Assembly: GCF_037975215.1 (NCBI RefSeq)
Contig: NZ_CP150239.1
Span: forward strand, 282,001-346,000
Direction: 5' to 3'
DNA from: Solibacillus sp. FSL R5-0449
Lineage (GTDB): Bacteria; Bacillota; Bacilli; Bacillales_A; Planococcaceae
Length of the DNA stretch: 64,000 nucleotides
Part shown: positions 31,524 through 59,294 of the stretch, piece by piece
Position numbering within the stretch: the first letter of the stretch is position 1
How the letters are laid out: each line of letters begins with the position of its first letter
The notes under the pieces: model-generated
What the model was told of the DNA's origin: nothing
The model's input: only the letters and a program-made list of their open reading frames with translations
Databases searched by the model: none
Program-made: the position numbers and the translations under genes

Positions 31524-32333
31524 ATTAGAAAAGTTTGACCGGATATTAGAAAACCGGGGAGACTTATTGGAACTTTTCAAGGTTTATTAGAACAAGTGGG
31601 CTATATATTAGAAGATCTCCCTTGGCCTATAAAGAGCTGTGACTGTGCCCCGGACTTTTACTGGCAGGTCACCGGTTTATTAGAACTTTTTCAGCGATAT
31701 TAGAAAAACCGGGTTACTTATTAGAAGATCGGATACCTTTATTTGAACATCTGTAACTTTTATTAGCACATCGGCCTACTTTATTAGAAGATCCGGAATT
31801 TATTAGAACTTTTCAAGGTTTATTAGAACAAGCTGGCTATATATTAGAAGATCTCCCCCGGCCTAAAAGAGCTGTGACTGTGCCCCGGACTTTTTCTGGC
31901 AGGTCACCGGTTTATTAGAACTTTTTCAGCGATATTAGAAAAACCTGGTTACATATTAGAAGATTGAGTACCTTTATTTGAACTTCTGTAACTTTTATTA
32001 GCACATCGGTCTACTTTATTAGAAGATCCGGAGTTTATTAGAACTTCTTAAGCTTTATTAGAACAATTGGGCGATATATTAGAAAATCTCCCCTTGGCCT
32101 AAAAATGCTGTGACTGTGCACCGGACCTTTTCAGGAAGTTCACCGGTTTATTAGAACTTTTTAAGCGATATTAGAAAAACCGGGTTACATATTAGAAAAT
32201 CGGATACCTATATTTGAACTTCTGTAACTTTTATTAGCACATCGGCCTACTTTATTAGAAGATCCGGAATTTATTAGAACTTTTCAAACTTTATTAGAAC
32301 AAGTGGGCTATATATTAGAAAATCTCCCCCCGG
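31524..32333 (+). repeat. ATTAGAA phased array A, with 235-bp higher-order repeat
   Basis: About 810 bp without a credible gene. It holds about 25 exact copies of ATTAGAA and about seven one-base variants (ATTTGAA, ATTAGCA, ATTGGAA), mostly stepped by 19-21 nt. On top of this lies a tandem repeat of about 235 bp: the segment GCTGTGACTGTG recurs at 31636, 31871 and 32107, and the TCGG of ATCGGYCTACTTT at 31771, 32006 and 32242. Each large unit contains the same ordered set of ATTAGAA units plus one motif-free block of roughly 55-65 bp. The array lies between convergent genes. Confidence 0.95.
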
Positions 32334-32353
32334 ACAACCAACCTCAGCCATAC

Positions 32354-32384
32354 AAAAAAGTGCCGCTATTATTAAGCGGCACTT
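32354..32384 (-). terminator. Terminator of the FhuF-like gene
   Basis: Perfect 10-bp inverted repeat AAGTGCCGCT / AGCGGCACTT, with an A-run on the plus side giving a U-run on the minus-strand transcript. Confidence 0.85.
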
Positions 32385-32397
32385 ACAAAACAAAACC

Positions 32398-33105
32398 CTA
32401 CTTCATCGGGCAAAATCCGCACGCCATTAAGCCGGGGATATCCTTTGAAAAACAGCAGCTTTTCCGAACAGGCTGATTGATGAGAGCGGAAGGGCTTTTC
32501 CCGCCTGTGTATTTTAAAAACAGCGATTTATCCGAGAAGTAACGCCAAACATTTTTATCTTCGAGCATGTCCAGATCCTCGAAAGCGCGGTCAGCCAATG
32601 CCGGATTTTCAAGTAAAGTATGGAAGTGCCAAAGCATGTATCCGAAAATATTTTCCCACAAAGTCAGCGGTGAAATGGATGTTGTTTTCCGTAACTGGCC
32701 AATAACAACGGATGTCTTGTATAAAATATCCGTCATTACTCGTTCGCGTTCATCATCCTCCACATAGCGGAAATCATTCGGGTTTATATACATCCCGAGT
32801 GTATGAATACCGAACTCCTGAACAATAGCAAAACGCAGATCTTCCGGCTTGCCGTCCCAAACTTCATCATACGTCGTCAGCATATAAAACTGCATCGCCA
32901 CAAACATGCCGTAGCGACGCCCGAAGTGGGAGATGGCCGCAGCTTCCGTAGCAGCATTTGTAATACCCATCATCAAATTGCGAAAATCCGTCAAATAAAA
33001 GTCTTTATGTAGATTCGCCAATGTAAATAATGGGCGGTCCGGTTCTTCGGTAAAAATACTATAGGAATTTAATTGTCGTACTTGATCATAAGAAAGTGCA
33101 GGCAT
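32398..33105 (-). CDS. FhuF-like / IucA-IucC C-terminal-type ferric iron reductase family protein
   Basis: 235-residue cytoplasmic protein ending in the FhuF-type iron-sulphur motif Cys-Cys-x10-Cys-x2-Cys (Cys217, 218, 229, 232). The FhuF family binds a [2Fe-2S] cluster and reduces ferric siderophores inside the cell; the body of the protein also resembles the C-terminal region of siderophore synthetases. The ATG at 33105 follows AAAAGGTG; an upstream in-frame ATG lies inside a repeated leader element. No siderophore genes are adjacent, but a Fur-box promoter lies about 660 bp away across a DUF4395 gene. Confidence 0.8.
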   Translation of the reverse strand: MPALSYDQVRQLNSYSIFTEEPDRPLFTLANLHKDFYLTDFRNLMMGITNAATEAAAISHFGRRYGMFVAMQFYMLTTYDEVWDGKPEDLRFAIVQEFGIHTLGMYINPNDFRYVEDDERERVMTDILYKTSVVIGQLRKTTSISPLTLWENIFGYMLWHFHTLLENPALADRAFEDLDMLEDKNVWRYFSDKSLFLKYTGGKSPSALINQPVRKSCCFSKDIPGLMACGFCPMK

Positions 33106-33132
33106 ATGTATCACCTTTTCTAAAAAATATTT

Positions 33133-33238
33133 ATCCCGCATTAACCGGTAGTAGAACGACCTGTTAATGCCCGATTGGTTCGACTAACAATCGTTGGGGG
33201 AGGAACACATCCCGCTGATTGAAGTTTTACTTTATATT
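33133..33238 (-). repeat. Structured leader repeat, copy 2 (upstream of the FhuF-like gene)
   Basis: Minus-strand reading begins ATATAAAGTAAAACTTC and ends GTTAATGCGGGATA, like copy 1 at 24165-24262. Three local hairpins are visible: GCGGGA with TCCCCC, CGATTG with CAATCG, and GCATTAAC with GTTAATGC. Confidence 0.6.
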
Positions 33239-33313
33239 TACTATACCATTTCTCTTCCTAAACGAGGTGAAAAACGCTATAATAAATTAAACATATAAGA
33301 AAGGTTGGTATTT

Positions 33314-33742
33314 ATGGCGAAACCTATTTCTGTACCAAGACCATTAGTGCGTGTAAATCAGTGGGTTATATTTTTATCAGTCGTTATCACATGGGTGACA
33401 GGACAGTACTGGATTTTGGCGATTCCGTTAATTGCAAATTTACTTGGGATTTTCACCGGGTTTAATCCGATAATGCGCTTTGCGAAAATATTTTTAACAA
33501 AAGACATCAAATCTTATATTCCTGAAGATATCGGACAGCAAAAGTTCAATTCAGCGATTGCGAGCATTTGTCTGGCGGGCGGAATAGTAGGGTTTGCCTT
33601 TAATTGGCCGGTCGTTGCATACAGCTTTACGATTATGGTGGCTGTTGCATCCTTTGTCGCAATTTTAGGTTTTTGCATTGGATGCTTTATGTTATTTCAA
33701 TTCAAACAATACCAATATCGTCGAACAGTAAAAAATTCTTAA
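33314..33742 (+). CDS. DUF4395 family membrane protein
   Basis: 142-residue integral membrane protein with four hydrophobic segments, an early VRVNQW motif and a late Cys pair GFCIGCFMLFQ, as in the DUF4395 family. Function unknown; the paired cysteines hint at thiol or metal chemistry. The ATG at 33314 follows AAGAAAGG by 9 nt; a TTG at 33305 is too close to that site. A TATAAT -10 box lies near 33272. Confidence 0.75.
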   Translation: MAKPISVPRPLVRVNQWVIFLSVVITWVTGQYWILAIPLIANLLGIFTGFNPIMRFAKIFLTKDIKSYIPEDIGQQKFNSAIASICLAGGIVGFAFNWPVVAYSFTIMVAVASFVAILGFCIGCFMLFQFKQYQYRRTVKNS

Positions 33743-33761
33743 GAAGAATATTGGAAATGGG

Positions 33762-33790
33762 TTGACAATGATATTGATAATCATTATCAT
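33762..33790 (+). promoter_or_regulatory. Sigma-A promoter overlapped by a Fur box
   Basis: TTGACA (33762-33767), 17-bp spacer, TATCAT (33785-33790). The 19-mer GATATTGATAATCATTATC at 33770-33788 matches the classical Fur consensus at 18 of 19 positions and covers the spacer and most of the -10 box, so iron-bound Fur would block this promoter. Confidence 0.85.
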
Positions 33791-33796
33791 TATAAC

Positions 33797-33938
33797 TGTA
33801 GCAAGAGCTTATTTGTAATACAGTACAAATAAGTCTGGGCTAACAACTTTTCTCCAGGAGTTTGTTAGCTCAGCCATAGCGTTCTAAACCCCCTCATTTA
33901 GAATGTAAGTTTGACTGTGTGTCAGACACTTAGTTTTT
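33797..33938 (+). ncRNA. Candidate Fur-repressed small RNA
   Basis: No usable open frame follows the Fur-box promoter, but a chain of strong hairpins does. They are a perfect 10-bp stem at 33808-33833, a perfect 8-bp stem at 33839-33869, and a 7-bp stem at 33882-33903 whose loop is CCCCCTCA. A terminator-like stem TTTGAC/GTCAGA follows, then TTTTT at about 33933-33938. The C-rich loop is complementary to Shine-Dalgarno sequences, as in the Fur-controlled FsrA RNA of B. subtilis, with which no primary homology is claimed. It probably represses iron-using genes under iron shortage (inference). Confidence 0.65.
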
Positions 33939-33989
33939 CACCCTTTATATTTTTCTTTTAGTTTTTCTTCCTTAATTGGGAGACCCATT

Positions 33990-34020
33990 GCCCGTGTCGC
34001 TTACAGATACGGGTATTTTT
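33990..34020 (+). terminator. Second terminator downstream of the Fur-controlled transcript
   Basis: Stem CCCGTGTC / GATACGGG (one G-U pair) followed by TATTTTT. It backs up the weaker hairpin at 33910-33938. Confidence 0.75.
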
Positions 34021-34047
34021 GTGTGCAAAAAATTTCTTAAACTTTTT

Positions 34048-34073
34048 TGAAACTTATTTTGAATTTCTCCGTC
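34048..34073 (+). promoter_or_regulatory. ECF-type sigma promoter
   Basis: TGAAAC (34048-34053), 16-bp spacer, CGTC (34070-34073), which matches the ECF promoter form TGAAAC-N16-CGT(A/C). It lies 36 bp before an operon that encodes an ECF sigma factor, implying autoregulation. Confidence 0.65.
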
Positions 34074-34109
34074 TGTACGTTGCTTAAGCAAAAAAGATAG
34101 GCGGAGGAA

Positions 34110-35388
34110 ATGATGAAAAAGTTAATTGCTGTAGGGTTTATCGCTGTTTGCGTATTATTCCTGACAATTGAATATAGAGGTTCAAGTGAAAAGATTGAAC
34201 GGGCCGTTGCAAATGAAAAGGATTTGGCGGGTCTGGAAAATGGAAACCCAATCGAACAAGCTACACATCTATTTGAAAAAGTTATTGTCCTGAATGAGGA
34301 GCAGCCGATTTATATAAAAGGAAATGCGCTCACTGAAATTGGAGTTGTTCATGCGAATACTTCATTTGCGATTGTTGGGGAAGATGAACTTTATTATGAA
34401 CTGCGATTCGGGAAAATTTCGGCCTTTATTAAAAAGGGAAGTGCTGCTGTAGAAAAACGTCCGCTTGAGACATTGGTAAATACAGAAATAACAAATTCAA
34501 TTAAAACGACAAAAAAAACAATTGTATATGAAGAAAAAAGCCTTAAGAGCAGTGCACTGATGCAGCTTTCACAAGGGTTCCGCTACCCGGTAGTGGGGGA
34601 GATTGATGAGTGGTTTGTCATTAAAGTAGGAGAACGTGCCGGTTATATACATAAAACATCAGTTGAAATAGATGAAGGAATTCCAGTTTTAGTGTATCAT
34701 CATATTTTGCCGAAAGAAGAAATGGTGACAAATGCAAGTACGGTTTCTGTACAATCATTTGAACAGCAAATGGCCTTTTTAGCTGAAGAGCAATTTACAA
34801 CAATTTCGACAACGCAGCTTTATGATTATTTGGAAGGTCGCCAAATTTTACCGGTTAATTCAATACTCATTACATTTGATGATGGTTTACTATCGACAAA
34901 GGTCTATGCTTATCCGATTTTAAAGGAACATGGATTTTCTGCCGTACAGCATATTATATCTTCTCGTACAGAACGTTTCGAAGGTGAACAAGTTTTTGAT
35001 GCGAAAGGACCGCTTCAATTTTTCACAGCCGAAGAGATGCAGCAAATGACGGATGTGTTTCAGTACGAAGCGCATACACATAATTTGCATCAGTTCAGCA
35101 ATGGGGCAGGGATCCGCATTAGAACTTTCAGCTGATGACATTGCGAAGGATTTGCAGCAAAATGTTAATATGCTGACGAATGCGACTTCTTTAGCGTATC
35201 CATTCGGTCATTACGATGAAGATATGATCGCAGCGATGAAGGAAGTCGGACTGTTAATCGGTTTTACGACAAATAAAGGCTATGCGAATATGCATCAATC
35301 AAATTATGAGGTCAATCGTTTCGGTATAACTGAAAATAATACATTTGAACAGTTCACGTCCTTTGTAAAGGGGGTGGGCTGGTCTTAA
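34110..35388 (+). pseudogene. Polysaccharide deacetylase with SH3-like domain, frameshifted
   Basis: Membrane-anchored or secreted protein with an N-terminal hydrophobic segment (about 4-20), an SH3-like region (YEEKSLKSSALMQL ... YIHKTSVEID) and a NodB-type carbohydrate esterase domain starting LVYHHILPKE and ITFDDGLLSTK. The first frame stops at 35135; the rest of the domain (ELSADDIAKDL ... YPFGHYDEDM) continues in the next frame to 35388. Removing one G from GGGG at 35103-35106 restores a continuous protein reading FSNGQGSALELS. So this is either a real single-base frameshift or a sequencing error. First gene of the ECF sigma operon. Confidence 0.8.
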
Positions 35389-35414
35389 GGATATAAGAAG
35401 GTGTAAATCGTTAC

Positions 35415-35909
35415 ATGAGAGAATTTGATGCAATTGTTGATGAGCACACGCGTTATTTAGTACGCATCGCTTATTTGTACGTTAAAAATTGGGCTACCGC
35501 CGAGGACATCGTACAGGAAGTGTTTGTAACATACTTTCAAAAGAGCGACCAGTTTCGCAATGAGTCGTCATTGAAAACGTATTTAACAAAAATGACAGCC
35601 AATCGCGCAAAAGATTATTTACGCTCATGGAAGCATAAAAAGGATGTTGTTTTTGAAACGATCTTTGCTCAAACAAAAGGTACGGACGAGGAAGTTATAC
35701 AAAAAGAGCATCTTGCATCACTTGAACAGAAGTTATTCCAGCTACCACTGAAATACCGTGAGCCGCTCATTTTATTTTATTATGACGAACAGTCCATTGC
35801 CGATATTGCCCTGTATTTACAACTGAATGAAAATACGGTCAAAACACGTTTGCGCCGAGCAAAGCAACAATTGAAAGAGTTTTTTAGCGAAGAGGGATTG
35901 GAGGAATGA
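35415..35909 (+). CDS. ECF-subfamily RNA polymerase sigma factor
   Basis: 164-residue sigma-70 family member with only regions 2 (about 10-75, containing WATAEDIVQEVFVTYF) and 4 (about 105-160, containing LPLKYREPLILFYYDEQSIADIA). The ATG at 35415 has a rather distant AAGAAGG. It follows the deacetylase gene by 26 nt and precedes the probable anti-sigma gene by 3 nt. The ECF-type promoter at 34048 probably is its own target. Confidence 0.9.
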   Translation: MREFDAIVDEHTRYLVRIAYLYVKNWATAEDIVQEVFVTYFQKSDQFRNESSLKTYLTKMTANRAKDYLRSWKHKKDVVFETIFAQTKGTDEEVIQKEHLASLEQKLFQLPLKYREPLILFYYDEQSIADIALYLQLNENTVKTRLRRAKQQLKEFFSEEGLEE

Positions 35910-35912
35910 TGC

Positions 35913-36989
35913 ATGGATCCATTTAAAAAACAACTGGATGAAATGATGGGTGATACACGCTTGCAGGAAAGTCGTATTAAGCAGCGCGTGAAATCCGAAT
36001 TGACTCCGGCCCCCCGAAAACAGAAACGTTCGTGGCATGTTCAATTAGTAACGGCAGCTGTTGCAGCAGTTGCGGTATTTCTATTTATGACGGCCGTTCC
36101 TTTTACGCAAAATTCGGGAAATGAAGGGCGGGGTGCCCCTTATGATCCGCTTGATGATTTAGCGGAAATTGCTACTCTTCAAAAAAAGAAGCAATTATCA
36201 ACAATCGATTATGATTCTTTTGCACAGCTACCAGTGCTGGAACAATTATCGGATTTACAATATGTAGATAAAGAAACCTTTACACTTGCAGGGAAAAAGG
36301 GACTTTACCATACAGTGATAGAACGTCAGGAAAATCTATTTGATGAAGCCGTGTATGAAGCAGGCGATATTGTACGAACAATGACGAATACGAGCAGTCA
36401 TTTACCAATTTACGAAAACGCCTATTATGAAGTAGTCGCTGTACCAGGAGACCGTGTCGTTTTGCAGGACGGCAAGTTAACGGTAAATGGGAAGCCTGTT
36501 AGATCGGAATTAAAGGAAATGTATGAGGAAAACGGCAATACGATTGCAGGAGGCTACGATCAGTTATTAAATGCGCGTGAATACTTTTTGGTAAATCATT
36601 TCCCGGCAAAAAATACAATGCAGGCAGGTACAATTACCGCTGTGCATAAAATTTACGGGGAAGTCGTAGCTCTGGCAGAGGAAAGTACAACAACATCCAT
36701 TTATTTGGAGTTGGAAAATGACTATACACCCGAACAATATTTTGATCTTTATTTGTACGATCAGATTTTTGGAGATGGGTCAATTAGTGAAAGATTATCG
36801 GCAAGCGATCTTCCATTTACACATTCGAACCGTTTAGGCGAGTTGTTTTTGGAAGCATCCTACCGAAATATTACGTATTTATCCGATACAGAAGTGGAAA
36901 TACGCTACCAGTATGACCGTGAAGCAGTAGGAGAATATGTATTTAAAATGTATAAAGATCCGACTGGCATTTGGCAGTGGGGAATGTAG
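35913..36989 (+). CDS. Probable anti-sigma factor with degenerate signal-peptidase-I-like domain
   Basis: 358-residue membrane protein directly after the ECF sigma gene. Cytoplasmic N-terminus 1-42, one membrane helix about 44-63, then a large extracytoplasmic part. Residues about 150-255 follow the signal peptidase I (S26) layout: GDIV, VAVPGDRVVLQDGKLTVNGKPV, then REYFLVNHFPAKNTMQAGTI and KIYGEVVAL. The catalytic Lys position (normally KRVIG before the PGD motif) is Glu (YYEVVAV), and no SM-type serine motif is seen, so it looks inactive. A C-terminal domain (about 265-358) is unrecognised. Anti-sigma role is inferred from position and topology. Confidence 0.65.
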   Translation: MDPFKKQLDEMMGDTRLQESRIKQRVKSELTPAPRKQKRSWHVQLVTAAVAAVAVFLFMTAVPFTQNSGNEGRGAPYDPLDDLAEIATLQKKKQLSTIDYDSFAQLPVLEQLSDLQYVDKETFTLAGKKGLYHTVIERQENLFDEAVYEAGDIVRTMTNTSSHLPIYENAYYEVVAVPGDRVVLQDGKLTVNGKPVRSELKEMYEENGNTIAGGYDQLLNAREYFLVNHFPAKNTMQAGTITAVHKIYGEVVALAEESTTTSIYLELENDYTPEQYFDLYLYDQIFGDGSISERLSASDLPFTHSNRLGELFLEASYRNITYLSDTEVEIRYQYDREAVGEYVFKMYKDPTGIWQWGM

Positions 36990-37012
36990 CAAAAGAGGCC
37001 GGGACATAACCC

Positions 37013-37053
37013 AAAAATGATATTTTTCTCTCAGAGAAAAATATCATTTTTTT
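37013..37053 (+). terminator. Strong terminator after the sigma operon
   Basis: Nearly perfect long stem AAAATGATATTTTTCTCT / AGAGAAAAATATCATTTT followed by more T residues. Confidence 0.9.
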
Positions 37054-37063
37054 GCTGAGCATT

Positions 37064-37169
37064 AAAATTGATTTCCATTCCGGGACGCTTTCCGCGGGCG
37101 TGGCCTGAGCCTGTAGTCTCAGGCGTCACGCTATTCCCGCAGGAGTCGCCCTGCATTCCAATCAATTTT
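37064..37169. repeat. Palindromic intergenic element (about 106 bp)
   Basis: Bounded by the perfect inverted repeat AAAATTGATT / AATCAATTTT. Inside are GCGGG/CCCGC and GCCTGAG/CTCAGGC arms, so the whole can fold into one long interrupted hairpin. It is GC-rich compared with its surroundings and resembles the dispersed TTTCCGCGGGCG-type repeats common in Bacillaceae (from memory). Only one copy is in this window. A 67-codon open frame over it is not a gene. Confidence 0.65.
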
Positions 37170-37202
37170 GCAAAATATCCGTTTCTTAATAAAGGATTCC
37201 TG

Positions 37203-38195
37203 TTATTTATCGGTTATTCTACTTATGTCCCAGTTCTTTTCATGTGCTGCTTGCAATCTTTTATTCATTAGTACTGTGTGATAGCTATGTAGCAGCATGC
37301 CGATAATGATAACCGCCAGTCCGATTAGCGCGATCGGCTGCGGGAGCGGAACACTTAGTAAAATCATTTCACCGACCATCGCAAAAATAACTTCTGTCGA
37401 TTGTGTCGCTTCAACGGCCGCCAGCTTTCCTTGATCGTGGCGCACCCGGTCTGTTGCGATAAAGAAAAGGGTTGTCGCAATGACACCGGAAGAAACCGCA
37501 ACAAGCAGTGATTGGTACACTTGGCTCGCAGAGGGCAGGCCGACCGTAAGTAATGCATAGACGGCGAGCAAAATCCATGCGGGCAGAGAAGCAATTGTCA
37601 TGCCTAGAACCCGTTGAAACGGATCGACTCTTCCTTTGCATAGCTCCATCATTTTCCGGTTACCTAGCGGGTAGGCAAAAGCTGCGATGATTACAGGCAG
37701 TATACCGAGAAGCAGAGTTTTCATAGAAACTGACTGTGCCTGCGGAATTTGGATTAGTAAAATCCCGATTAAAATAATGCCCGAGATGCCTAGTGAAATA
37801 AGCGGAATTTTTGCCCTGACATCTTTTCCGGCGATAGTTGTAATAAACAAGGGGGCCAGCAAAACACCTGCTACAATCGTAAACTGCCATGTACCCGATA
37901 CGAGCCAGCCTGGACCGAATGCCGCGGCAAATGTAAGTGGTGCATAAAATAATACGAACCCGACAAAGCTCCAAACGAGCCATGCACCCGGATGTTCTTT
38001 CATTTCATTTGATAATAAACGAAAACCGCCTTTTCCCCGTATGGCGACAATGGCAATGAGGAAGGGGAGCATGAAAAAGTAGCGGAGTGAAGAACTCCAT
38101 AGCCAGCTGCCGCCTTCCAATTCCATTGAATGATTCAATACAAAAGTAACCGCAAAAAATAAGGCAGCTAAAATGCCAATCAGTATTTCCTTCAT
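37203..38195 (-). CDS. DMT-superfamily multidrug-efflux-type membrane transporter
   Basis: 330-residue protein with about ten hydrophobic segments and the two-fold repeat of drug/metabolite transporters; it resembles the family annotated as multidrug resistance efflux transporter (EmrE-like, PF13536) more than classical EamA proteins. Segments FAVTFVLNHSMELEGGSWLW and EATQSTEVIFAMVGEMILL belong to the two halves. Start at 38195 (MKEILIG) with GAGGTG upstream; the open frame extends 26 codons further without a ribosome site. Substrate unknown. Confidence 0.8.
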   Translation of the reverse strand: MKEILIGILAALFFAVTFVLNHSMELEGGSWLWSSSLRYFFMLPFLIAIVAIRGKGGFRLLSNEMKEHPGAWLVWSFVGFVLFYAPLTFAAAFGPGWLVSGTWQFTIVAGVLLAPLFITTIAGKDVRAKIPLISLGISGIILIGILLIQIPQAQSVSMKTLLLGILPVIIAAFAYPLGNRKMMELCKGRVDPFQRVLGMTIASLPAWILLAVYALLTVGLPSASQVYQSLLVAVSSGVIATTLFFIATDRVRHDQGKLAAVEATQSTEVIFAMVGEMILLSVPLPQPIALIGLAVIIIGMLLHSYHTVLMNKRLQAAHEKNWDISRITDK

Positions 38196-38416: not shown

Positions 38417-38425
38417 GCTTTTGGT

Positions 38426-39649: not shown

Positions 39650-39679
39650 CCGAAAAAGACCTCCTAATACTTATTGCTT

Positions 39680-43213: not shown

Positions 43214-43383
43214 AACTCTTATCAAGAGCGGCGGAGGGAATAGGCCCTGAGATGCCCGGCAACCAGTAAGTGATGAACTGACTAAGGTGCTAAATCCTAC
43301 AAAATGGACAATCATTTTGAAAGATAAGAGGAGGCAAACTTGCTCATGCGCAACCCTCTTCTTAACTGAAGAGGGTTTTTTTC
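43214..43383 (+). promoter_or_regulatory. SAM-I riboswitch (S-box) with terminator
   Basis: The aptamer begins CTCTTATCAAGAGCGGCGGA, continues through GGCCCTGAGATGCCCGGCAACC and closes with GATAAGAG at about 43323-43330, the S-box consensus order. The expression platform is a terminator with arms AACCCTCTT (43352-43360) and AAGAGGGTT (43369-43377) plus seven T. With SAM bound, transcription stops; without it, the sulfhydrylase gene is expressed. Confidence 0.97.
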
Positions 43384-43447: not shown

Positions 43448-44752
43448 ATGACAAATTTAAGACCAGAAACATTATTATTACACGGGGGTCAAAAACCAGA
43501 TCCTGAAACAGGAGCAATCGCTGTTCCGGTTTACCGTACAACGGCTTATGCATTTAACGACACTGCTCATGCGCAACGTCTATTTGCATTACAGGAGACA
43601 GGCAATATTTATTCCCGTATTATGAACCCGACAGTCGGGGCATTTGAAGAACGGGTTGCTTTATTAGAAGGGGGTACAGCTGCAGTAGGGCTTTCATCTG
43701 GCGCAGCAGCAGTAGCATTTTCTATTTTAAACGTAGCCGGTGCAGGGGATGAAATTGTTGCGGCAGGCTCTCTTTACGGCGGGACTTACAATTTATTCGC
43801 AACTACATTGCCTCGCTACGGCATTACAGTAAAATTTGTGGATGAATCAGATCCTGCAAACTTCCAGGCGGCAATCACGGATAAAACGAAGGCAATCTTC
43901 GCTGAAATTATCGGAAATCCAAGCTTAAAAGTACTGGATATTGAAGCGGTAGCAAACATTGCTCATGACAATGGTCTTCCTTTATTAATCGACAGCACAT
44001 TTGCTTCCCCATACGGAAGTAATCCGATCGAATTCGGCGCGGATGTTGTCATTCATTCTGCAACAAAGTGGATTGGCGGTCATGGAACGACGATCGGCGG
44101 GATTGTTGTTGATGCAGGGAAGTTTGATTGGACGCAAGGAAGACATCCAGGATTTACAGAACCGGATACTTCCTACCATGGTCTACGCTACGGAATTGAC
44201 ACAGCAGGCGCTGCATTTGCGACAAAGCTTCGTGTTCAACTATTGCGTGATTTTGGTCCAACATTATCTGCTGACGCGGCATTTAACTTCCTGCAAGGAC
44301 TTGAAACGCTTCATTTGCGTATTGTCCGACACAATGAAAATACACAAAAAGTAGCCGAGTATTTAAGAAACCACCCATTTGTGGAATACGTAAATTACAA
44401 CGGCTTTGAAGATTTTGCGACACATGATCTAGCGAAGAAGTATTTGAAAAATGGCTTCGGATCGATCATTACATTCGGTATTAAAGGTGGGCGTGAAGCA
44501 GGCCGCCAAGTAATCGATAACGTGGAACTGTTCTCTCATGTAGCGAACGTTGGGGATGCCCGTTCATTGATCATCCACCCTGCGAGCACAACACATCAAC
44601 AGTTATCTGCTGAAGAATTAAAAACTGCCGGCGTATCGGAAGAGCTCATTCGCTTATCGATCGGGTTAGAAGCAGCAGAAGATATTATCGCTGATTTAGA
44701 ACAGGCACTAGCAAAAGTTGCGGCTGAAGTAGGCGTAGAAACAAACGTATAA
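43448..44752 (+). CDS. metY: O-acetylhomoserine sulfhydrylase / aminocarboxypropyltransferase
   Basis: PLP enzyme of the Cys/Met metabolism family, 434 residues, matching the longer MetY type rather than the ~380-residue MetI/MetB type. Lys207 in HSATKWIGGHG forms the PLP Schiff base. ISRIMNPT-like motif YSRIMNPTVGAFEERVALLEGG and the C-terminal HPASTTHQQL are typical. It makes homocysteine from O-acetylhomoserine and sulfide. SAM riboswitch control fits methionine synthesis. Ribosome site TTGGGGG. Confidence 0.93.
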   Translation: MTNLRPETLLLHGGQKPDPETGAIAVPVYRTTAYAFNDTAHAQRLFALQETGNIYSRIMNPTVGAFEERVALLEGGTAAVGLSSGAAAVAFSILNVAGAGDEIVAAGSLYGGTYNLFATTLPRYGITVKFVDESDPANFQAAITDKTKAIFAEIIGNPSLKVLDIEAVANIAHDNGLPLLIDSTFASPYGSNPIEFGADVVIHSATKWIGGHGTTIGGIVVDAGKFDWTQGRHPGFTEPDTSYHGLRYGIDTAGAAFATKLRVQLLRDFGPTLSADAAFNFLQGLETLHLRIVRHNENTQKVAEYLRNHPFVEYVNYNGFEDFATHDLAKKYLKNGFGSIITFGIKGGREAGRQVIDNVELFSHVANVGDARSLIIHPASTTHQQLSAEELKTAGVSEELIRLSIGLEAAEDIIADLEQALAKVAAEVGVETNV

Positions 44753-45338: not shown

Positions 45339-45349
45339 AATAATTTCGG

Positions 45350-45383
45350 AACACTAGCGAGCCCCCTTGCTAGTGTTTTTTAT
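45350..45383 (+). terminator. Terminator of the Panacea-like gene
   Basis: Stem AACACTAGC / GCTAGTGTT plus extra pairs, followed by TTTTTT. Confidence 0.88.
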
Positions 45384-45421
45384 TTTGAAGATTTTTGCGG
45401 GTGATGTGATGTATGGGTTTT

Positions 45422-45738
45422 ATTGGAAGAATTAAGAAGGTTATTAGAAGAAGTTTTGGGAATATTAGAAGAAATGGCGATGTTATTAGAATTTGAGGGG
45501 AATCGTGGTTTGGGTACGTGCTTTTTTAGCCGAAAAATGGATGCAAAAACCGGTATGCCGGTTTTATTAGAACAATGGAGTGGGATATTAGAAGAAGTGT
45601 GAGTGATATTAGCACATTGAGCTCGGATATTAGCATGTTTTGCATCCATATTAGAACATTGGCCGGATATATTAGAAGATCGCAATTTTATTAGAACATT
45701 TTAAAATATATTAGATGATTTCCGAATATATTAGAAAA
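45422..45738 (+). repeat. ATTAGAA phased array B
   Basis: Motif starts at 45422, 45443, 45464 and 45485, then, after an 81-nt break, at 45566, 45587, 45608, 45629, 45650, 45671, 45690, 45710 and 45730. Nine of the twelve steps are 21 nt and the final ones are 19, 20 and 20 nt. Eight units are exact ATTAGAA; the others differ by one or two bases. The 12-14 nt between motifs are not conserved. No credible gene lies here. Confidence 0.93.
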
Positions 45739-48343: not shown

Positions 48344-48457
48344 AAAGTGGAACAAACTGTGCATAAAGTGGAAAGTTGAGCGGGAAAAGTAGAACTTTTT
48401 GAATGAAAAGTAGAACCTTACGCAAAGAAAGTAGAACAAATCACATATAAAGTAGAA
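48344..48457 (+). repeat. AAAGTRGAA phased array C
   Basis: Six copies of AAAGTGGAA or AAAGTAGAA at 48344, 48365, 48386, 48407, 48428 and 48449, every step exactly 21 nt. Between copies the bases differ freely. The array fills the gap between the EamA gene and the promoter region of the next two-component system. Confidence 0.93.
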
Positions 48458-48570
48458 TCTCTTTTAATTCAAATAAGAAATCTTAAGAATTTCTTCAGAT
48501 TTACAGTAGTGAGATGTTAAGAAATGGGCTTTATTATAAACTTATAAGAAAAAGTTGTGAGGTGAGCAAG

Positions 48571-49439: not shown

Positions 49440-49625
49440 TGAAGCGGTTACTTCAATAGCCTGCTGAATGAAGATATGCCCCTGGCGGATGTCACAGATT
49501 TTCAAAGGGGAGGATGTCAGCCTAAAAACGTCGCGTCGTGCGACAAAGGCTGACTGAACTGACCCACGTCCTGTGGGTCTAAAATCTGGACGCAATTACG
49601 CCGAGGCGTAATTGATAACTAAGTG
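49440..49625. repeat. Compound palindromic element, family R2 copy 1
   Basis: A nested set of perfect arms: CAGATTTT (49495) with AAAATCTG (49581); inside it TCAGCCT/AGGCTGA (49517, 49547) and GACCCAC/GTGGGTC (49561, 49573); and at the right end CAATTACGCC/GGCGTAATTG (49593-49614). The right end, TCTGGACGCAATTACG, recurs at 56662-56694. The element separates a response regulator from its kinase. Confidence 0.8.
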
Positions 49626-51831: not shown

Positions 51832-51837
51832 TGATTG

Positions 51838-51876
51838 AACTGCAGCGAGGGGAGATTACCTTGCTGCAGTTTTTTG
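51838..51876 (+). terminator. Terminator of the kinase gene
   Basis: Stem AACTGCAGC / GCTGCAGTT with further pairs AGG/CCT, followed by TTTTTT. Confidence 0.85.
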
Positions 51877-51907
51877 TTTTGGCTGGGGCGGGGGCAGGCG
51901 AGTACTT

Positions 51908-52080
51908 ATTAGAAGAAAAAAGTTTTTATTAGAAGAAGTGTACCGGATATTTGAAGATGTGAACCGGTTATTCGAAAATGTTACACACATATTAGAAGAA
52001 CGGGCCAGGATATTAGAAACTCAAGGATTTATTAGAACAACTGAATGTTATATTAGACAAAAACAGATTTTATTAGAAAA
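51908..52080 (+). repeat. ATTAGAA phased array D
   Basis: Nine motif units at 51908, 51928, 51949, 51970, 51991, 52012, 52031, 52052 and 52072; steps 20, 21, 21, 21, 21, 21, 19, 21, 20. Six are exact ATTAGAA; the others are ATTTGAA, ATTCGAA and ATTAGAC. It lies directly after the kinase terminator. The rest of the 350-bp gap shows nothing else. Confidence 0.92.
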
Positions 52081-52183
52081 CCCCACCCACAGTCACAATG
52101 TAAAAGCTTATTGACTAACGCCATTTACTCAAAATATAGTAAAATGGCAACATTGCAGATGACAAAATAAGGTTAGGAGCAAC

Positions 52184-53260: not shown

Positions 53261-53283
53261 GATAGGAAAAAGGGGAACGTGAA

Positions 53284-54108
53284 ATGGAATGGATTGAGCT
53301 TTTAAAAGCTTTAATTTTAGGATTTGTCGAAGGGATGACCGAGTTTGCACCGGTTTCTTCAACAGGACATATGATTATCGTTGATGATATGTGGCTGCAA
53401 ACAAAGGAATTTTTAGGTTCCGGCTCGGCAAATACATTTAAAATTGTAATTCAGCTTGGATCGATATTGGCGGTCGTTTTCGTTATGTGGAAACGATTAC
53501 TGAGTCTAGTTGGATTATATAAAATAGAAGGACAGAAAAAAACGCGTTTTAATTTAGGACATGTAATCGTCGGTATCATTCCAGCAGGTATTTTCGGCTT
53601 GCTGTTTGAAGATTTTATCGATGAAAATTTATTCAGTATCAAAACTGTCATTGTAGGATTAATTATCGGGGCCATCTTTATGATTATTGCCGATAAGTTT
53701 GGTCCGAGAAGACCGGCTATTACGTCATTGGATGATATTTCATACAGTAAAGCATTGAAAATAGGGTTTATCCAATGTTTATCGCTTTGGCCAGGGTTTT
53801 CACGCTCAGGCTCAACGATTTCAGGCGGGGTACTGCTTGGGTTGGATCATAAAACAGCTGCGGACTTTACGTTCATAATGGCGGTGCCGATTATGGCGGG
53901 GGCAAGCGGTTTGTCGCTAGTTAAAAACTGGGATCAAATTAATGCCGATCACTTTTGGTTTTATGTAGTCGGTTTTGTGAGCGCATTTGTATTTGCACTT
54001 ATTTCGATTAAGTTCTTCCTGAAGCTGATTTCAAAAGTAAAATTAACGCCATTTGCGATTTACCGAATCGTGCTGGCACTAATCTTAATTATTGTTTTAG
54101 CTGTATAA
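53284..54108 (+). CDS. uppP: Undecaprenyl-diphosphate phosphatase (UppP/BacA)
   Basis: Integral membrane phosphatase of 274 residues that recycles the cell-wall lipid carrier. The two BacA motifs are present: GFVEGMTEFAPVSSTGHMII near the N-terminus with the catalytic Glu, and LWPGFSRSGSTISGG with the essential Arg. Around eight hydrophobic segments. Ribosome site AAAAAGGGG. Provides bacitracin tolerance in other species. Terminator follows, shared with the convergent AIM24 gene. Confidence 0.93.
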   Translation: MEWIELLKALILGFVEGMTEFAPVSSTGHMIIVDDMWLQTKEFLGSGSANTFKIVIQLGSILAVVFVMWKRLLSLVGLYKIEGQKKTRFNLGHVIVGIIPAGIFGLLFEDFIDENLFSIKTVIVGLIIGAIFMIIADKFGPRRPAITSLDDISYSKALKIGFIQCLSLWPGFSRSGSTISGGVLLGLDHKTAADFTFIMAVPIMAGASGLSLVKNWDQINADHFWFYVVGFVSAFVFALISIKFFLKLISKVKLTPFAIYRIVLALILIIVLAV

Positions 54109-54110
54109 AA

Positions 54111-54153
54111 AGGAAAAGGAGCTGTCCTGAATTCGGGACCGCCCCTTTTTTGT
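54111..54153. terminator. Bidirectional terminator between uppP and the AIM24 gene
   Basis: Interrupted stem AAAAGGAGC-GTCC with GGAC-GC-CCTTTT around GAATTC, followed by a T-run; A-rich left side serves the other strand. Confidence 0.75.
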
Positions 54154-54155
54154 GC

Positions 54156-54953
54156 TTACTTGTTGAACAGGTCAAATAATCCGCCGATACCGCCTTCACC
54201 TGCGTCTTTACCGCCACCACCTTGAGTAACTGGTGCTGCAGCAAACACACGGCTTGCGAGACGGCTGAATGGCAATGATTGTACCCAAACTGTACCAGGA
54301 CCGGATAGCGTTGCAAAAAATAGTCCTTCTCCACCGAATAAAGCTGTTTTAATACCGCTTACCATTTCGATATCGTAATTTACATCTTGTGTCATCGCGA
54401 CTAAACAGCCTGTATCAATACGCAATTTTTCACCGGGCTGAAGTTTGCGTTCGTAAATTGTTCCGCCTGCATGTACAAAAGCCATACCGTCTCCTTCAAG
54501 CTTCTGCATAATGAACCCTTCACCACCGAAGAATCCTGTACCTAATTTTTTCTGGAATTCTACGCCGACCGATACACCTTTTGCAGCAGCTAGAAATGCA
54601 TCTTTCTGGCAGATGATTTTGCCGTCCAATTCGCTTAAATTCATCGGAATGATTTTACCTGGATATGGGGAAGCAAAGTATACTTTACGTTTGCCCATGC
54701 CGTTATTTGTAAACATCGTCATGAATAAGCTTTCGCCTGTAATTAAACGTTTTCCTGCACCAAGTAATTTCCCCATTAAACCGGAGCCATGATTTGCCGA
54801 GCCATCACCGAAAACGGTTTCCATCTCAATTTGATCTTCCATCATCATTAAACTTCCGGCTTCCGCCACAACCGTTTCCTGCGGGTCAAGCTCCACCTCT
54901 ACAAACTGCATATCATCGCCGTGTAAGACATAGTCGATTTCATGATTTTTCAT
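54156..54953 (-). CDS. AIM24 family protein (TIGR00266)
   Basis: 265-residue beta-rich protein of the AIM24/TIGR00266 family. Typical features are AGSLMMMEDQIEMET near the N-terminus, EGFIMQKLEGDGMAFVHAGG in the middle and GEGLFFATLSGPGTVWVQSLPFSRLA near the end, with a Gly-rich tail. Function unknown in bacteria; it forms oligomeric assemblies in the structures I recall. Ribosome site AAGGAG. Single gene. Confidence 0.87.
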   Translation of the reverse strand: MKNHEIDYVLHGDDMQFVEVELDPQETVVAEAGSLMMMEDQIEMETVFGDGSANHGSGLMGKLLGAGKRLITGESLFMTMFTNNGMGKRKVYFASPYPGKIIPMNLSELDGKIICQKDAFLAAAKGVSVGVEFQKKLGTGFFGGEGFIMQKLEGDGMAFVHAGGTIYERKLQPGEKLRIDTGCLVAMTQDVNYDIEMVSGIKTALFGGEGLFFATLSGPGTVWVQSLPFSRLASRVFAAAPVTQGGGGKDAGEGGIGGLFDLFNK

Positions 54954-55147
54954 TTTTTTATCTCCTTACAATTCAATTTTATATTCACAATAATAGATAC
55001 GCTTGAAGATTCCAAAAGTTTCAAAATGACGAAAATAATATTTATCACCGAATAATATTACTCTATTATTCTTTTTGAGAAAAAAAGGGAATAAAGTAGA
55101 GAATGTCGAATAATTAAAAGGTAAATGAGAATTTGTGAGGTGGAGAA

Positions 55148-56629
55148 ATGAAGCTGTTAAATTTTATTGGTGGAGAATGGATAGAAGACAATTCATTGCA
55201 AACGATGCCTGTGATTAATCCTGCAAATGGTGAACAGTTAGGAACGATACCACTTTCGACAAAATTCCAAGTCGAACTCGCTGCACAAAAGGCGAAAGCG
55301 GCCCAAAAAGATTGGGCGCTTGTTCCGGCACCAAAACGTGCGGAGTATTTATATGAAATTGCTTTTAAACTGAAAGAAAAGAAAGAACATCTCGCGCAAA
55401 TATTAACGAAGGAAATGGGCAAGGTCATTGAAGAAGCACGCGGAGAAGTACAAGAAGGAATCGATATGGCACTTTATATGGCAGCAGAAGGTAGACGTTT
55501 ATTTGGAGAAACGGTCCCGTCGGAATTGCCGAATAAGTTTGCGATGAGTGTACGCGCACCGATTGGGGTGGCAGGACTTATTACGCCATGGAATTTCCCG
55601 ATTGCAATTGCGACATGGAAGTCTTTCCCTGCACTTGTTGCAGGTAATACGGTTGTCTGGAAGCCTTCCAACGAAACACCTTTTATGGCTTACGAGCTTG
55701 CAAAAATATTTGAGGAGGTCGGCTTGCCGCCTGGTGTCGTCAATGTTGTATTTGGTTCGGGTCCTACAGTCGGAACAGCGATTGTCGAGCATCCGGACAT
55801 CCGTGTCATTTCCTTTACGGGGTCAACAACGACAGGCAGCAAAGTAGCCGAACTCGGCGGAAAACATCTGAAAAAAGTTTCGCTTGAAATGGGCGGGAAA
55901 AATGCGGTCATTGTAATGGATGATGCTGATCTTGACTTGGCACTTGAAGGCATTTTATGGAGCGCATTTGGTACGGCAGGGCAGCGCTGTACCGCATGCA
56001 GCCGTGTAATTGTGCATAAAAATGTAAAACAGGAGTTGGAAAAACGTCTTGTGGAAGCGACGAAGCAGCTGACAATCGGAGACGGATTGGATCCTTCGGT
56101 TAAAGTAGGACCTGTCATCAATAAGGCTGCACTGGAGAAAATCAATCATTATGTACAGATCGGTAAGCAGCAAGGTGCAAATTTGCTGATTGGCGGAGAA
56201 ATTTTATCTGAAGGTGAATTGGCAAAAGGCTATTACTATGCCCCGACCATTTTCACCGATGTGGAGGCATCAAGCATTCTTGCACAAGAGGAAATTTTCG
56301 GTCCTGTCATTAGTATGATTGAAGTCAGCAGTTTGGAAGAGGCAATTGAAGTGAATAACGGTGTAAAGTTTGGCTTGTCAAGCTCGATTTTCTCACAAGA
56401 TGTCAACAAAATTTTCAAAGCACAGCAGTTGCTTGATACAGGGATTGTCTATGTAAATGCCGGAACAACAGGCGCGGAAATTCATTTGCCGTTTGGCGGG
56501 ACAAAAGGCACCGGAAACGGTCACCGCGATTCAGGTCAGGCAGCGCTTGATGTGTATACGGAATGGAAGAGTGTCTACGTAGACTACAGCGGCAAATTGC
56601 AACGTGCCCAAATCGATAATAACGCTTGA
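55148..56629 (+). CDS. Aldehyde dehydrogenase, probable semialdehyde dehydrogenase
   Basis: NAD(P)-dependent aldehyde dehydrogenase of 493 residues. Catalytic Cys281 lies in [11 protein letters not shown], the general base Glu247 in SLEMGGKN, the cofactor site in [10 protein letters not shown] and [12 protein letters not shown] lysine 6-dehydrogenase-like gene follows 90 bp later, so the likely substrate is 2-aminoadipate 6-semialdehyde (in equilibrium with piperideine-6-carboxylate), giving 2-aminoadipate (inference). Ribosome site GTGAGGTGGAG. A short hairpin and an R2 repeat separate it from that gene. Confidence 0.85.
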
Positions 56630-56651
56630 TGATTCCTCTATTCGAATCATC
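56628..56651 (+). terminator. Possible weak terminator after the aldehyde dehydrogenase
   Basis: Perfect 8-bp stem GATGATTC / GAATCATC without a clear T-run; it overlaps the stop codon. It may be a processing or stability hairpin rather than a terminator. Confidence 0.4.
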
Positions 56652-56656
56652 GCATC

Positions 56657-56697
56657 TCAAAATTCTGGACGCAATCACGCATGATGCGTAATTGACT
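56657..56697. repeat. Palindromic repeat, family R2 copy 2 (right end only)
   Basis: AAAATTCTGGACGCAATCAC followed by a CAATCACGCAT / ATGCGTAATTG stem. It matches the right end of the 49440-49625 element; the larger nested arms are missing. Confidence 0.7.
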
Positions 56698-56719
56698 TAA
56701 TAAAAAAGGGGATGTTTAC

Positions 56720-57892
56720 ATGAAAGTAGTAGTGTTAGGTGCAGGGTTGATGGGGAAAGAAGTAGCGCGCGATTTAGTCCAAAGTGAAGATGTGAAAAAG
56801 ATTTTTTTAGCCGATGTTTCAACAGGTCCTGCAAAGGAATTCGTCAATACATTGAATACAGATAAGGTTGAAGTAGTGCAGCTTGATGCAGAAGATGACA
56901 AAGCATTGCGTGATGTCATCGGCCGCGGTGATGTAGTTGTGAATGCGCTGTTCTATAAATTCAATAAACGAGTTGCCCAAGCGGCAATTGATGCAGGGGT
57001 GCACTCAGTAGATTTAGGCGGCCATATTGGCGGAATTACTGAATCTATTTTCGAGCTGCACGGTCAGGCAGTCGATAATGGCGTGACGATTATTCCGGAT
57101 TTAGGTGTAGCACCGGGAATGATCAATATTTTGACGGGTTACGGGGCGACAAAGTTTGATTCTGTCGATTCGATCAAACTTTATGTAGGTGGTATTCCAA
57201 CAACACCGCAGCCTCCATTGCATTATATTCGTGTGTTCTCGCTGGATGGGGTATTTGACCATTATACAGAGCCTTCGAAAATGATCCAAAAAGGTGTGCT
57301 GACAGAAGTTGAGTCTTTAACAGGACTTGAGCCGATCTACTTTGACGAGTTCGGAGTATTGGAGGCCTTCTACACATCCGGCGGTATTTCAACGTTATAT
57401 AAAACATTCCCGCATGTGAAAACACTTGAATACAAAACGATCCGCTATAAAGGTCACGCGGAGCAGTTTAAATTGCTTGCCGATTTAGGCTTCCTTGATA
57501 AAAATAATACCGTTGAAGCTGGCGGTCGTGAAGTAAATGTCCGGGAAGTAACGAGGGAAGTATTGCAGAAAAAACTGGATATCGGCGATAATGTCGATGC
57601 CGTATTATTACGTGCAATTATTTCAGGTGAAAAGTCGGAAGAACAAATTACGTATGAATATGAAATGGTCGTACGAAAAGATACAGATCATAACGTGACG
57701 GCGATGGCCCGCGCAACGGCAAATACGATTTCAATCGTGGCTCAAATGGTTGGCAAGGGGCTGATTGGGGAGCGCGGTGTATTTGCACCGGAAACAGTTG
57801 TGCCAGGTCGTGAGTTTATTCAGGAAATGGCAAAGCGTGGTGTTGATATTAAAGAAACATCACACCGTTCATCCATGATTGTAAAGTGGTAG
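56720..57892 (+). CDS. Saccharopine dehydrogenase-fold protein, probable L-lysine 6-dehydrogenase
   Basis: 390 residues; the Rossmann motif GAGLMGKEVARDL starts at residue 7. The family pattern includes DLGGHIGGITESIFEL, IPDLGVAPGMINIL and GGIPTTPQPPLHYIRVFSLDG. The length and pattern fit the L-lysine 6-dehydrogenase group known from Geobacillus, which deaminates the epsilon-amino group of lysine with NAD; true saccharopine reductases share the fold, so the substrate is inferred. Ribosome site AAAAAGGGG. It lies 10 nt before an acyl-CoA dehydrogenase. Confidence 0.75.
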   Translation: MKVVVLGAGLMGKEVARDLVQSEDVKKIFLADVSTGPAKEFVNTLNTDKVEVVQLDAEDDKALRDVIGRGDVVVNALFYKFNKRVAQAAIDAGVHSVDLGGHIGGITESIFELHGQAVDNGVTIIPDLGVAPGMINILTGYGATKFDSVDSIKLYVGGIPTTPQPPLHYIRVFSLDGVFDHYTEPSKMIQKGVLTEVESLTGLEPIYFDEFGVLEAFYTSGGISTLYKTFPHVKTLEYKTIRYKGHAEQFKLLADLGFLDKNNTVEAGGREVNVREVTREVLQKKLDIGDNVDAVLLRAIISGEKSEEQITYEYEMVVRKDTDHNVTAMARATANTISIVAQMVGKGLIGERGVFAPETVVPGREFIQEMAKRGVDIKETSHRSSMIVKW

Positions 57893-57902
57893 GAGTGAGG
57901 GT

Positions 57903-59093
57903 ATGAACTTCGAATTTTCAGAAGAACAGAAACTTTTACGAAAAACAGTAAGGCAATTCGTTGATGCGGAAATTATCCCTTATATTGCCGATTGGGATGC
58001 GGGCGGCGGTTTTGATCCGAAATTATGGAAGCGACTTGCCGAGCTTGGTTTGATGGGCGTTTGTGTACCGGAAAAATACGGCGGAGCAGGAATGGACTAT
58101 AATTCGCTCGCAATTGTATGCGAGGAGCTTGAGCGCGGGGATACGGCGTTTCGTACGGCCGTTTCCGTGCATACGGGCTTAAATAGTATGACGCTCATGC
58201 AATGGGGCACAGAGCAGCAGAAGGAGAAATATTTGCTGCCTCAGGCAAAGGGCGAGAAAATCGGCGCATTCGGTCTGACAGAACCTGGTGCCGGCTCGGA
58301 TGTAGCGGCGGTGAGTTCATTTGCGAAACGTGATGGGGACCACTATATTTTGAACGGTCAAAAAACGTGGATTTCTTTATGTGATATCGCAGATCATTTC
58401 CTTGTATTTGCCTATACAGATAAGGAAAAAGCACATCACGGTATTTCCGCTTTTATCGTTGAGCGTGAATGGGCTGGTTTTAGCTCAAAGGCGATTAAGG
58501 GCAAATACGGTATTCGCGCAGGAAATACAGGTGAACTGTTCTTTGAAGATGTCAAAATTCCGGTAGAAAACTTGCTTGGGGAAGAAGGAGAAGGTTTTAA
58601 AATTGCAATGTCCGCACTCGATAACGGCCGTTTTACTGTTGCTGCAGGGGCTGTCGGCTTAATACAGGCGTGTATCGAAGCGAGCGTCAAGTACTGCAAA
58701 GAACGCGAAACATTCGGCAAACCGATCGGTGAACATCAACTGGTCGGTCAAATGCTCGCAAAAATGGAAGCCGGCTATGAAATGAGTCGTCTGCTCGTGT
58801 ATCGCGCAGGAGAGCTGAAAAATAAAGGCGTACGCAACACGAGGGAAACATCGCTCGCCAAATGGCAGGCGTGTGACTTTGCGAATAAAGCGGCAGATGA
58901 TGCGGTTCAAATCCACGGGGCATACGGTTATTCCGATGAATATCCGGTAGCCCGCTATTTACGGAATTCCAAAGCACCGGTCATTTATGAAGGGACACGC
59001 GAAATTCATACAATGATGCAGGCAGATTATGTGCTTGGCAAACGTGCAGATAAGAAGTTACGCTGTATGCTGCCAAGCTGGCCGTTTGAATAA
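57903..59093 (+). CDS. Acyl-CoA dehydrogenase
   Basis: FAD-dependent acyl-CoA dehydrogenase of 396 residues. Signature 1 is GAFGLTEPGAGSD, the flavin region LNGQKTWIS follows, signature 2 lies in AADDAVQIHGAYGYSDEYPV, and the catalytic Glu is in VIYEGTREIHTMM near residue 362. Ten bases after the lysine dehydrogenase-like gene. In lysine catabolism through 2-aminoadipate the expected enzyme is glutaryl-CoA dehydrogenase, but a general short-chain enzyme is equally possible. Ribosome site AGGAGTGAGGG. Terminator and array E follow. Confidence 0.85.
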   Translation: MNFEFSEEQKLLRKTVRQFVDAEIIPYIADWDAGGGFDPKLWKRLAELGLMGVCVPEKYGGAGMDYNSLAIVCEELERGDTAFRTAVSVHTGLNSMTLMQWGTEQQKEKYLLPQAKGEKIGAFGLTEPGAGSDVAAVSSFAKRDGDHYILNGQKTWISLCDIADHFLVFAYTDKEKAHHGISAFIVEREWAGFSSKAIKGKYGIRAGNTGELFFEDVKIPVENLLGEEGEGFKIAMSALDNGRFTVAAGAVGLIQACIEASVKYCKERETFGKPIGEHQLVGQMLAKMEAGYEMSRLLVYRAGELKNKGVRNTRETSLAKWQACDFANKAADDAVQIHGAYGYSDEYPVARYLRNSKAPVIYEGTREIHTMMQADYVLGKRADKKLRCMLPSWPFE

Positions 59094-59102
59094 TTTGATG
59101 AG

Positions 59103-59133
59103 GCGAAAGGTTGTAGTGACCTTTCGCTTTTTT
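59103..59133 (+). terminator. Terminator of the lysine/acyl-CoA gene group
   Basis: Perfect 9-bp stem GCGAAAGGT / ACCTTTCGC followed by TTTTTT. Confidence 0.9.
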
Positions 59134-59180
59134 GTATTGCAAGCGGGGGACTGGTGATTCGGTTATTTTGGATGAGGCTT

Positions 59181-59294
59181 GGCGGACATGTAGCTGGAGT
59201 TGGCGAATATGTATAGTGAAATGACGAATAAGGAAAAGAAGTTGACGAATAAGTAAGTCTAAGTGGCGAAAACCATCTAGAAACTGGCTAATAC
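59181..59294 (+). repeat. GRCGAATA phased array E
   Basis: Six units at 59181, 59202, 59223, 59244, 59265 and 59286, every step exactly 21 nt: GGCGGACAT, GGCGAATAT, GACGAATAA (twice), GGCGAAAAC and GGCTAATAC, mostly preceded by T. A degenerate seventh unit may start near 59160. It lies directly downstream of the acyl-CoA dehydrogenase terminator. Confidence 0.88.

Follow-up and report, generated by a model that had tools for sequence, protein, structure and literature searches.

Intergenic arrays of short direct words at a 21-nt step in Solibacillus: possible DNA sites for an oligomeric protein

A 64,000-nt stretch of the 3.58-Mb chromosome of Solibacillus sp. FSL R5-0449 (G000:C1:282001-346000; hereafter the window) contains five intergenic arrays, called A to E, in which a short word recurs about every 21 nt between spacers of free sequence. 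The phase is kept while the word changes, the words are conserved more strictly than the spacers, and the arrays lie mostly between tandem or convergent genes and turn over quickly. We favour, with a little less than even confidence, the reading that they are DNA sites for a putative lineage-specific, oligomeric protein in the gaps between transcription units. The arrays belong to the non-coding DNA of ordinary bacteria and occur genome-wide. The initial annotation of the window, made from the letters alone, knew of no described system of this kind, and likewise no earlier description was found in open PMC papers, as far as their accessible portions extend. The arrays and the signals next to them are as follows; the terminators are those found by the terminator scan.

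31453..31483, + strand: intrinsic terminator directly before array A
31523..32320, + strand: array A, class I with TATTAGAA units, made up mostly of 3.2 copies of a 236-nt block
32358..32384, - strand: terminator of the convergent gene, directly after array A
45348..45379, + strand: intrinsic terminator directly before array B
45421..45736, + strand: array B, class I element in two blocks separated by an internal gap
48344..48457, + strand: array C, class C (AAAGTRGAA), 6 units, exact 21-nt steps
51837..51872, + strand: intrinsic terminator directly before array D
51905..52078, + strand: array D, class I, 9 units, words kept in 6 species
52111..52140, + strand: promoter-like TTGACT/TATAGT 3' of array D, kept in the six-species alignment
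59100..59130, + strand: intrinsic terminator before array E
59180..59291, + strand: array E (TGRCGAATA / TGGCTAATA), 6 units, 21-nt steps

The 21-nt phase and its words

All five arrays that had been proposed exist at these coordinates. Lag 21 is the top lag in each, and 21, 42 and 63 are the top three lags in C and E, which step by exactly 21 nt throughout, as had been said of them. We use the term unit to refer to a word together with its free spacer. The window holds 50 copies of the class I word ATTAGAA where 16 are expected, and none of 100 shuffles reached 50. The signal extends well beyond the window. In a word-free lag scan of 866 kb of the source genome, G000 (6297 overlapping non-coding windows), lag 21 was best in 67 of the 88 windows that reached the identity cut-off (≥0.48), followed by 42 (9 windows) and 20 (6 windows). 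Mean intergenic identity was 0.298 at lag 21 and 0.281 (standard deviation 0.002) at the other lags from 12 to 69, with 20, 42 and 63 set aside. The same sample holds 74 intergenic ATTAGAA pairs spaced by 19-21 nt, and the signal is absent from shuffled intergenic sequence (mean 0.02 pairs, maximum 1 over 100 shuffles), which removes one of the doubts raised at the outset. Ten more pairs at 21 nt lie inside stretches called coding by a crude open reading frame (ORF) caller. Over the whole chromosome there are 332 spaced ATTAGAA pairs (207 forward, 125 reverse), and the reversed-pattern control gives 0. Contigs picked by the ATTAGAA pattern show many periods, of which 21 is the commonest, but their selection makes them an unfair control.

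The 866-kb sample contains 19 clusters, two of which (3341925 and 3351141) look like A/T-rich noise. About six words are used in G000 alone, namely TATTAGAA (class I), AAAGTRGAA (class C), TGRCGAATA, TGRCTAATA, TTGGCTAAAAA and TTAATCCTCA; the TGRC words possibly form a single class. Elsewhere in the family, other genera have AAACGTRGAATAAA, TTCTATCGGCAACTT, TTATCTGCG and TTAGTGTACTTTC, nearly all at 21 nt, the exception being the array TTGGAGTAACG, which steps by 20 nt (L374:845-980; G018:C6 ~300.8-301.0 kb). The initial observation that the phase is kept while the word changes thus extends from the window to the genome and across genera.

GTRGAA triples at strictly 21 nt occur in 18 of the family's 101 genomes and in 8 of its 19 genera (some matches are coding, and the reversed control is mostly 0), and further extended GTRGAA units are present among the family genomes. 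RCTAAWA triples occur in 6 of the 101, but more genomes score with the reversed control than with the pattern itself, possibly through matches of the control to other arrays. TAATCC triples are found in 4 of the 101. Their control gives 96 matches in G132; these CCTAAT triples at 21 nt are probably another word class (ATTAGG, other strand). In the class Bacilli, 27 of 398 genomes have GTRGAA triples; outside the family many matches look by eye like coding repeats, and many scattered matches occur only in G430, a member of another family with 52 of them, where each of the two loci viewed overlaps an ORF of 80 codons or more. Samples of 40-140 kb from each of G010, G028, G030, G031, G033 and G049 contained no 21-nt array above threshold. 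Among the matches listed for three spaced ATTAGAA words (at least 120 named stretches), at least 9 Solibacillus and at least 3 Ureibacillus manganicus stretches carry the words at 20/21-nt steps; the other 108 are probably single coding matches in many cases. A Solibacillus faecavium stretch aligns to G000 at 80% in two pieces of ~2.5 kb.

Step order and conservation

Class I is one dispersed element. Anchored on its 19-then-20 step it has 35 sites, 19 forward and 16 reverse, so that the common direction reported initially holds for the five arrays of the window and fails genome-wide; on the same counts the idea of a leading-strand polarity was dropped. In two-block copies, 21-nt units are followed by a gap of ~82 nt (63+19) and by a second run of 21-nt units that ends in steps of 19, 20 and 20, and the length from first to last word is 307-309 nt in 6 of 26 arrays. 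The class I steps had been described as mostly 21 with some of 19-20, which is correct, but the steps of 19 and 20 occupy fixed positions rather than scattered ones. Array D, for example, has the order 20, 21, 21, 21, 21, 19, 21, 20.

Class C (14 arrays counted, 11 inspected) has a step syntax of its own. In 7 of the 11 arrays, an ATTAG-type word interrupts the AAAGTRGAA units. With four off-phase look-alike words set aside, the internal ATTAG-type unit is preceded by an 18/19-nt step in 15 of 16 cases (the exception is 21, and one of the 15 was read as 21+19 across a missing unit) and is followed by a step of 21 in 14 of 15. In a further array, at 1117562, the steps are 61, 82 and 40, all of them 2 short of a multiple of 21. 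G067 (word CTAATA) also shows the pattern 21, 21, 21, 40, as does U. manganicus with some 20s and a single 60 among the steps; in this recurring pattern the blocks within one array are duplicates.

The conserved core comprises 8-12 nt per unit, for units picked by exact word. Selection was assessed in 12 ortholog comparisons of four arrays (C, D, E and the array just before the window, with 1-5 species each), in all of which G000 was the reference. Substitutions affect 23/518 in words, 286/1238 in spacers and 355/1820 outside the arrays (Fisher p = 7e-25, with non-independent rows). Only exact G000 words were scored as words, and three variant units of D thus count as spacer; array A, whose blocks differ, and orthologs without an array (C in G003, E in G003 and G005, and the remoter species) were left out. 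The contrast is evident in the array just before the window (6/98 in words, 64/257 in spacers), in D (3/210 and 164/645) and in C (6/126 and 38/210). Inserted array bases amount to three in the array before the window and one in D of G012, and none are deleted. In the six-species alignment of D, gap columns number 0/171 inside the array and 43/203 outside, and units 3 and 4 carry the variant ATTYGAA in all six species. The small number of indels and the slower change of words than of spacers indicate, at the level of aligned sequence, that word and spacing are under purifying selection in place, which agrees with the initial suggestion that the spacing itself is selected.

The other origin suggested for the phase was a slippage or duplication process with a 21-nt unit and without function. 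Such a process accounts well for the gain and loss of units, and both units and blocks of 103, 124 or 236 nt are indeed duplicated and deleted. It would, however, copy word and spacer alike and would not pick words common to many loci. Since the spacers decay faster than the words, slippage alone is disfavoured, and we give it scarcely any weight.

Location between genes and the RNA and coding alternatives

Thirty of the class I sites have a locus (5 of 35 do not) and form 26 distinct arrays by crude ORF calls. Eleven of these lie between convergent genes, nine between co-oriented tandem genes, five between tandem genes that they oppose, and one between divergent genes, a case that depends on a 75-aa ORF. 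Of the intergenic base pairs in the 866-kb sample, 15% lie in convergent, 64% in tandem and 21% in divergent gaps. The five opposed arrays also speak against a common direction of all arrays. A terminator had been seen before every array, and the scan finds it for A, B, D and E; for C it finds none, and by eye there is a weak hairpin with a T run. Since two terminators enclose A, and D has a terminator on one side and a conserved promoter-like site on the other, the gaps that bear arrays should be little transcribed.

The neighbouring genes are varied. Array A is flanked by an M20 peptidase gene and a convergent gene, C by genes for an EamA transporter and a response regulator, and E by genes for an acyl-CoA dehydrogenase and a GNAT protein. 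Orthologs of 48460-48514 in G005 and G007 carry additional GGAATGGAGGGGAGGCGACTCCTGCGG... sequence in the gap from array C to the next gene, which looks like a separate interspersed repeat.

A function at the level of RNA, in which the array would be transcribed and the word would be a binding site for a protein or small RNA or part of a fold, had been offered as an alternative, and is hard to reconcile with arrays that sit after terminators and before promoters or convergent terminators. The A/G tolerance of the words would suit G-U pairing, array B contains an internal hairpin, and one covariation score (0.34) exceeds 19 of 20 null maxima; this score comes from 26 of 30 copies (L390, L400, L402 and L416 dropped), among them related copies, and was judged too weak. 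The arrays have no Rfam match at the gathering score, and folding of arrays B-E and two further elements gave no simple repeated hairpin. Pairing between the halves of a copy is no stronger within than between copies (permutation p 0.96; 13 copies, leaving out those with no clear left block and L393, L394, L404 and L405). With the fold, pairing and Rfam tests all unsupportive, we consider an RNA function improbable. A specific variant, with AGUAGAA forming back-to-back loop-E motifs in a giant hairpin, failed the half-pairing test and was rejected.

The arrays could also be coding DNA, living or decayed, because 21 nt equals seven codons and the words would encode parts of coiled-coil heptads (TTA GAA as LE, GTR GAA as VE). 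Class I spacers in the TTA GAA frame have only 1 stop in 47 units, where shuffled spacers give 20.9, but under a column-permutation null this deficit is weak (3.4 expected, standard deviation 1.6; 10% of permutations are as low), which leaves class I a small chance of a coding origin. Heptad residue 4 is often L, V or M, and the word is invariably preceded by I or L. In G000, array D stays open over 58 codons, with changes of which 30 are synonymous and 65 are not (24% synonymous expected), but two of six species have a stop in its TTA GAA frame and its spacers do not vary most at third positions (10/16, against 13/20 and 9/20). A 19-nt and a 20-nt step together restore the frame, but singly these steps shift it, as do those of 40, 103 and 124 nt. 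The 91 units of class C contain 21 in-frame stops, where column permutation predicts 17.6, and the place after terminators also argues against translation. Heptad coding thus appears disfavoured from base composition and alignment, and we hold it very unlikely; the class C and D stops likewise speak against the decayed coding repeat that had been envisaged as an outcome fatal to the initial proposal, if less clearly in view of the near-open class I units.

A putative binding protein, dispersal and known systems

In the binding-site reading, a putative DNA-binding protein would occupy each word of ~8-12 bp, about one helical turn, and the word with its free spacer would span two turns. Neighbouring protomers would touch across the 21-bp step, and their contact would set the spacing and leave the spacer sequence free. 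Constrained word and spacing beside a free spacer are found here, as in a protein-bound DNA array. One-turn words, a two-turn step, a free spacer, a place outside transcripts and the lack of a supported RNA structure or a consistent curvature together suggest a protein that binds words and touches its neighbours. Intrinsic curvature, computed with wedge values, gives z from -1.0 to 2.2 over six arrays and exceeds 2 only in C. With lineage-specific word classes, several per genome, recognition would have to evolve, or paralogous proteins would have to exist. The elements would spread as copies, recombination would add and remove units and blocks, and selection would then keep some sites; selection in place suggests that at least some copies are useful. 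The outcome would likely be architectural or insulating at the ends of transcription units, as a roadblock, bridge or supercoil sink.

A wider proposal, which we advance only tentatively and consider rather doubtful as a whole, is that a new class of chromosomal site arrays marks transcription-unit ends in Bacilli, with a 21-bp ruler, a block syntax and lineage-varying words, read by a fast-evolving family of oligomeric DNA-binding proteins that would organise or insulate the chromosome. That the spacing rule outlives its word points to such a hidden family of proteins and to a principle by which the chromosome is organised at the ends of genes.

Several observations weigh against binding sites of this kind. 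No protein that binds the words is known or was found, and the 10 neighbour proteins (2 of them with no Pfam match) share no function or theme. The regular 18/19-nt steps misfit strict binding on one face of the DNA and do not support, as it was worded, the initial proposal that all units would lie on one face; because such steps exist, assembly is not simply on one face. The selection comparisons share one reference, the flanks of C (18/275) are better conserved than its spacers (38/210), and in E words and spacers differ weakly (8/84 and 20/126). The class I unit in the TTA GAA frame reads roughly L-E-[QEKHN]-[LVM]-x-x-[IL], a near-open heptad. Lastly, the arrays are gained and lost quickly. 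Among 12 genomes with its upstream gene, array C is present in 6, reduced to one unit in 1 and absent from 5; array E is present in 4 of 15 genomes, reduced to two units in 2 and absent from 9; the gap of array A varies from 154 to 951 nt across six genomes, and A is almost gone in G012. ATTAGAA pair totals range from 0 to 419 across the genus, with 0-3 pairs in 5 of 16 members.

Patchy presence and fast turnover would also be expected of selfish dispersed repeats, that is, small non-autonomous mobile elements whose 21-nt units bind a transposase or recombinase encoded elsewhere. The single class I family with 35 anchored sites fits this explanation, and so does genus g2, where the units are embedded in an interspersed repeat with a fixed leader, 3-5 GTAGAA units and a related end (14 copies viewed). 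Copies of these arrays at different loci are near-identical (for example 97% over 170 bp) with partly different flanks, and look recently dispersed, which gives some substance to the decay from a mobile repeat considered initially. Purifying selection on words and spacing in place, however, is unexpected for a dead insertion. When B, C, D and E were scanned for inverted repeats, only B gave any, and these were imperfect or internal arms; a clean empty site with a target duplication was not seen by eye at loci A, C and E. We therefore regard mobile repeats as unlikely, though worth serious consideration. At four loci of G016, also of genus g2 (L473, L475, L480 and L481), GGTGACAGGCACC words recur adjoining the array elements.

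The putative sites resemble known systems in part. The iterons of plasmid origins are protein-binding direct repeats about two helical turns apart, accompanied by a cognate Rep gene. The arrays would share the protein binding and do share direct repeats about two turns apart; they differ in having many chromosomal copies by unrelated genes, with only the 8-12 nt word conserved. Array B has a single match among plasmid records, which falls in a coding gene, and none among phage records. Polar chromosome signals such as KOPS (FtsK-orienting polar sequences) and Chi are likewise many short words spread along the chromosome, but the present words are arrayed, intergenic and found on both strands. 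As in arrays of clustered regularly interspaced short palindromic repeats (CRISPR), repeats alternate with non-repeated spacers of regular size. CRISPR repeats measure 24-48 bp and their spacers are acquired whole, whereas here the core is 8-12 nt, spacers drift by substitution between species and there are many loci.

Repetitive extragenic palindromes and bacterial interspersed mosaic elements (REP/BIME) are described (PMC3733652, PMC1525189) as high-copy non-coding repeats located mostly between tandem and convergent genes, with many families per genome; REPs are palindromes of 20-40 bp. On that description the location is similar, tandem or convergent genes flanking 25 of 26 class I arrays, but the arrays have direct words, a fixed 21-nt phase and free spacers, and inverted repeats of at least 10 nt are absent from C, D and E. 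Miniature inverted-repeat transposable elements (MITEs), among which PMC3733652 names Bcr1, are also small dispersed non-coding elements, and dispersal, with a common leader and end, is seen in g2. MITEs carry terminal inverted repeats and a target-site duplication; no inverted arms were found in C, D and E, no duplication came to light for the g2 copies, and the words appear to be selected in place.

Three structured RNAs lie elsewhere in the window. An S-adenosylmethionine (SAM) riboswitch (Rfam RF00162, 86 bits) is found at 43216-43330, upstream of the gene at 43448, and 6S RNA (RF00013) at 22664-22855 on the - strand. A Bacillaceae-1 RNA (RF01690) at 49506-49577 lies upstream of a histidine kinase gene, in a gap that is ~240 nt shorter in G005, G007 and G008 according to a table of gap lengths made without alignment.

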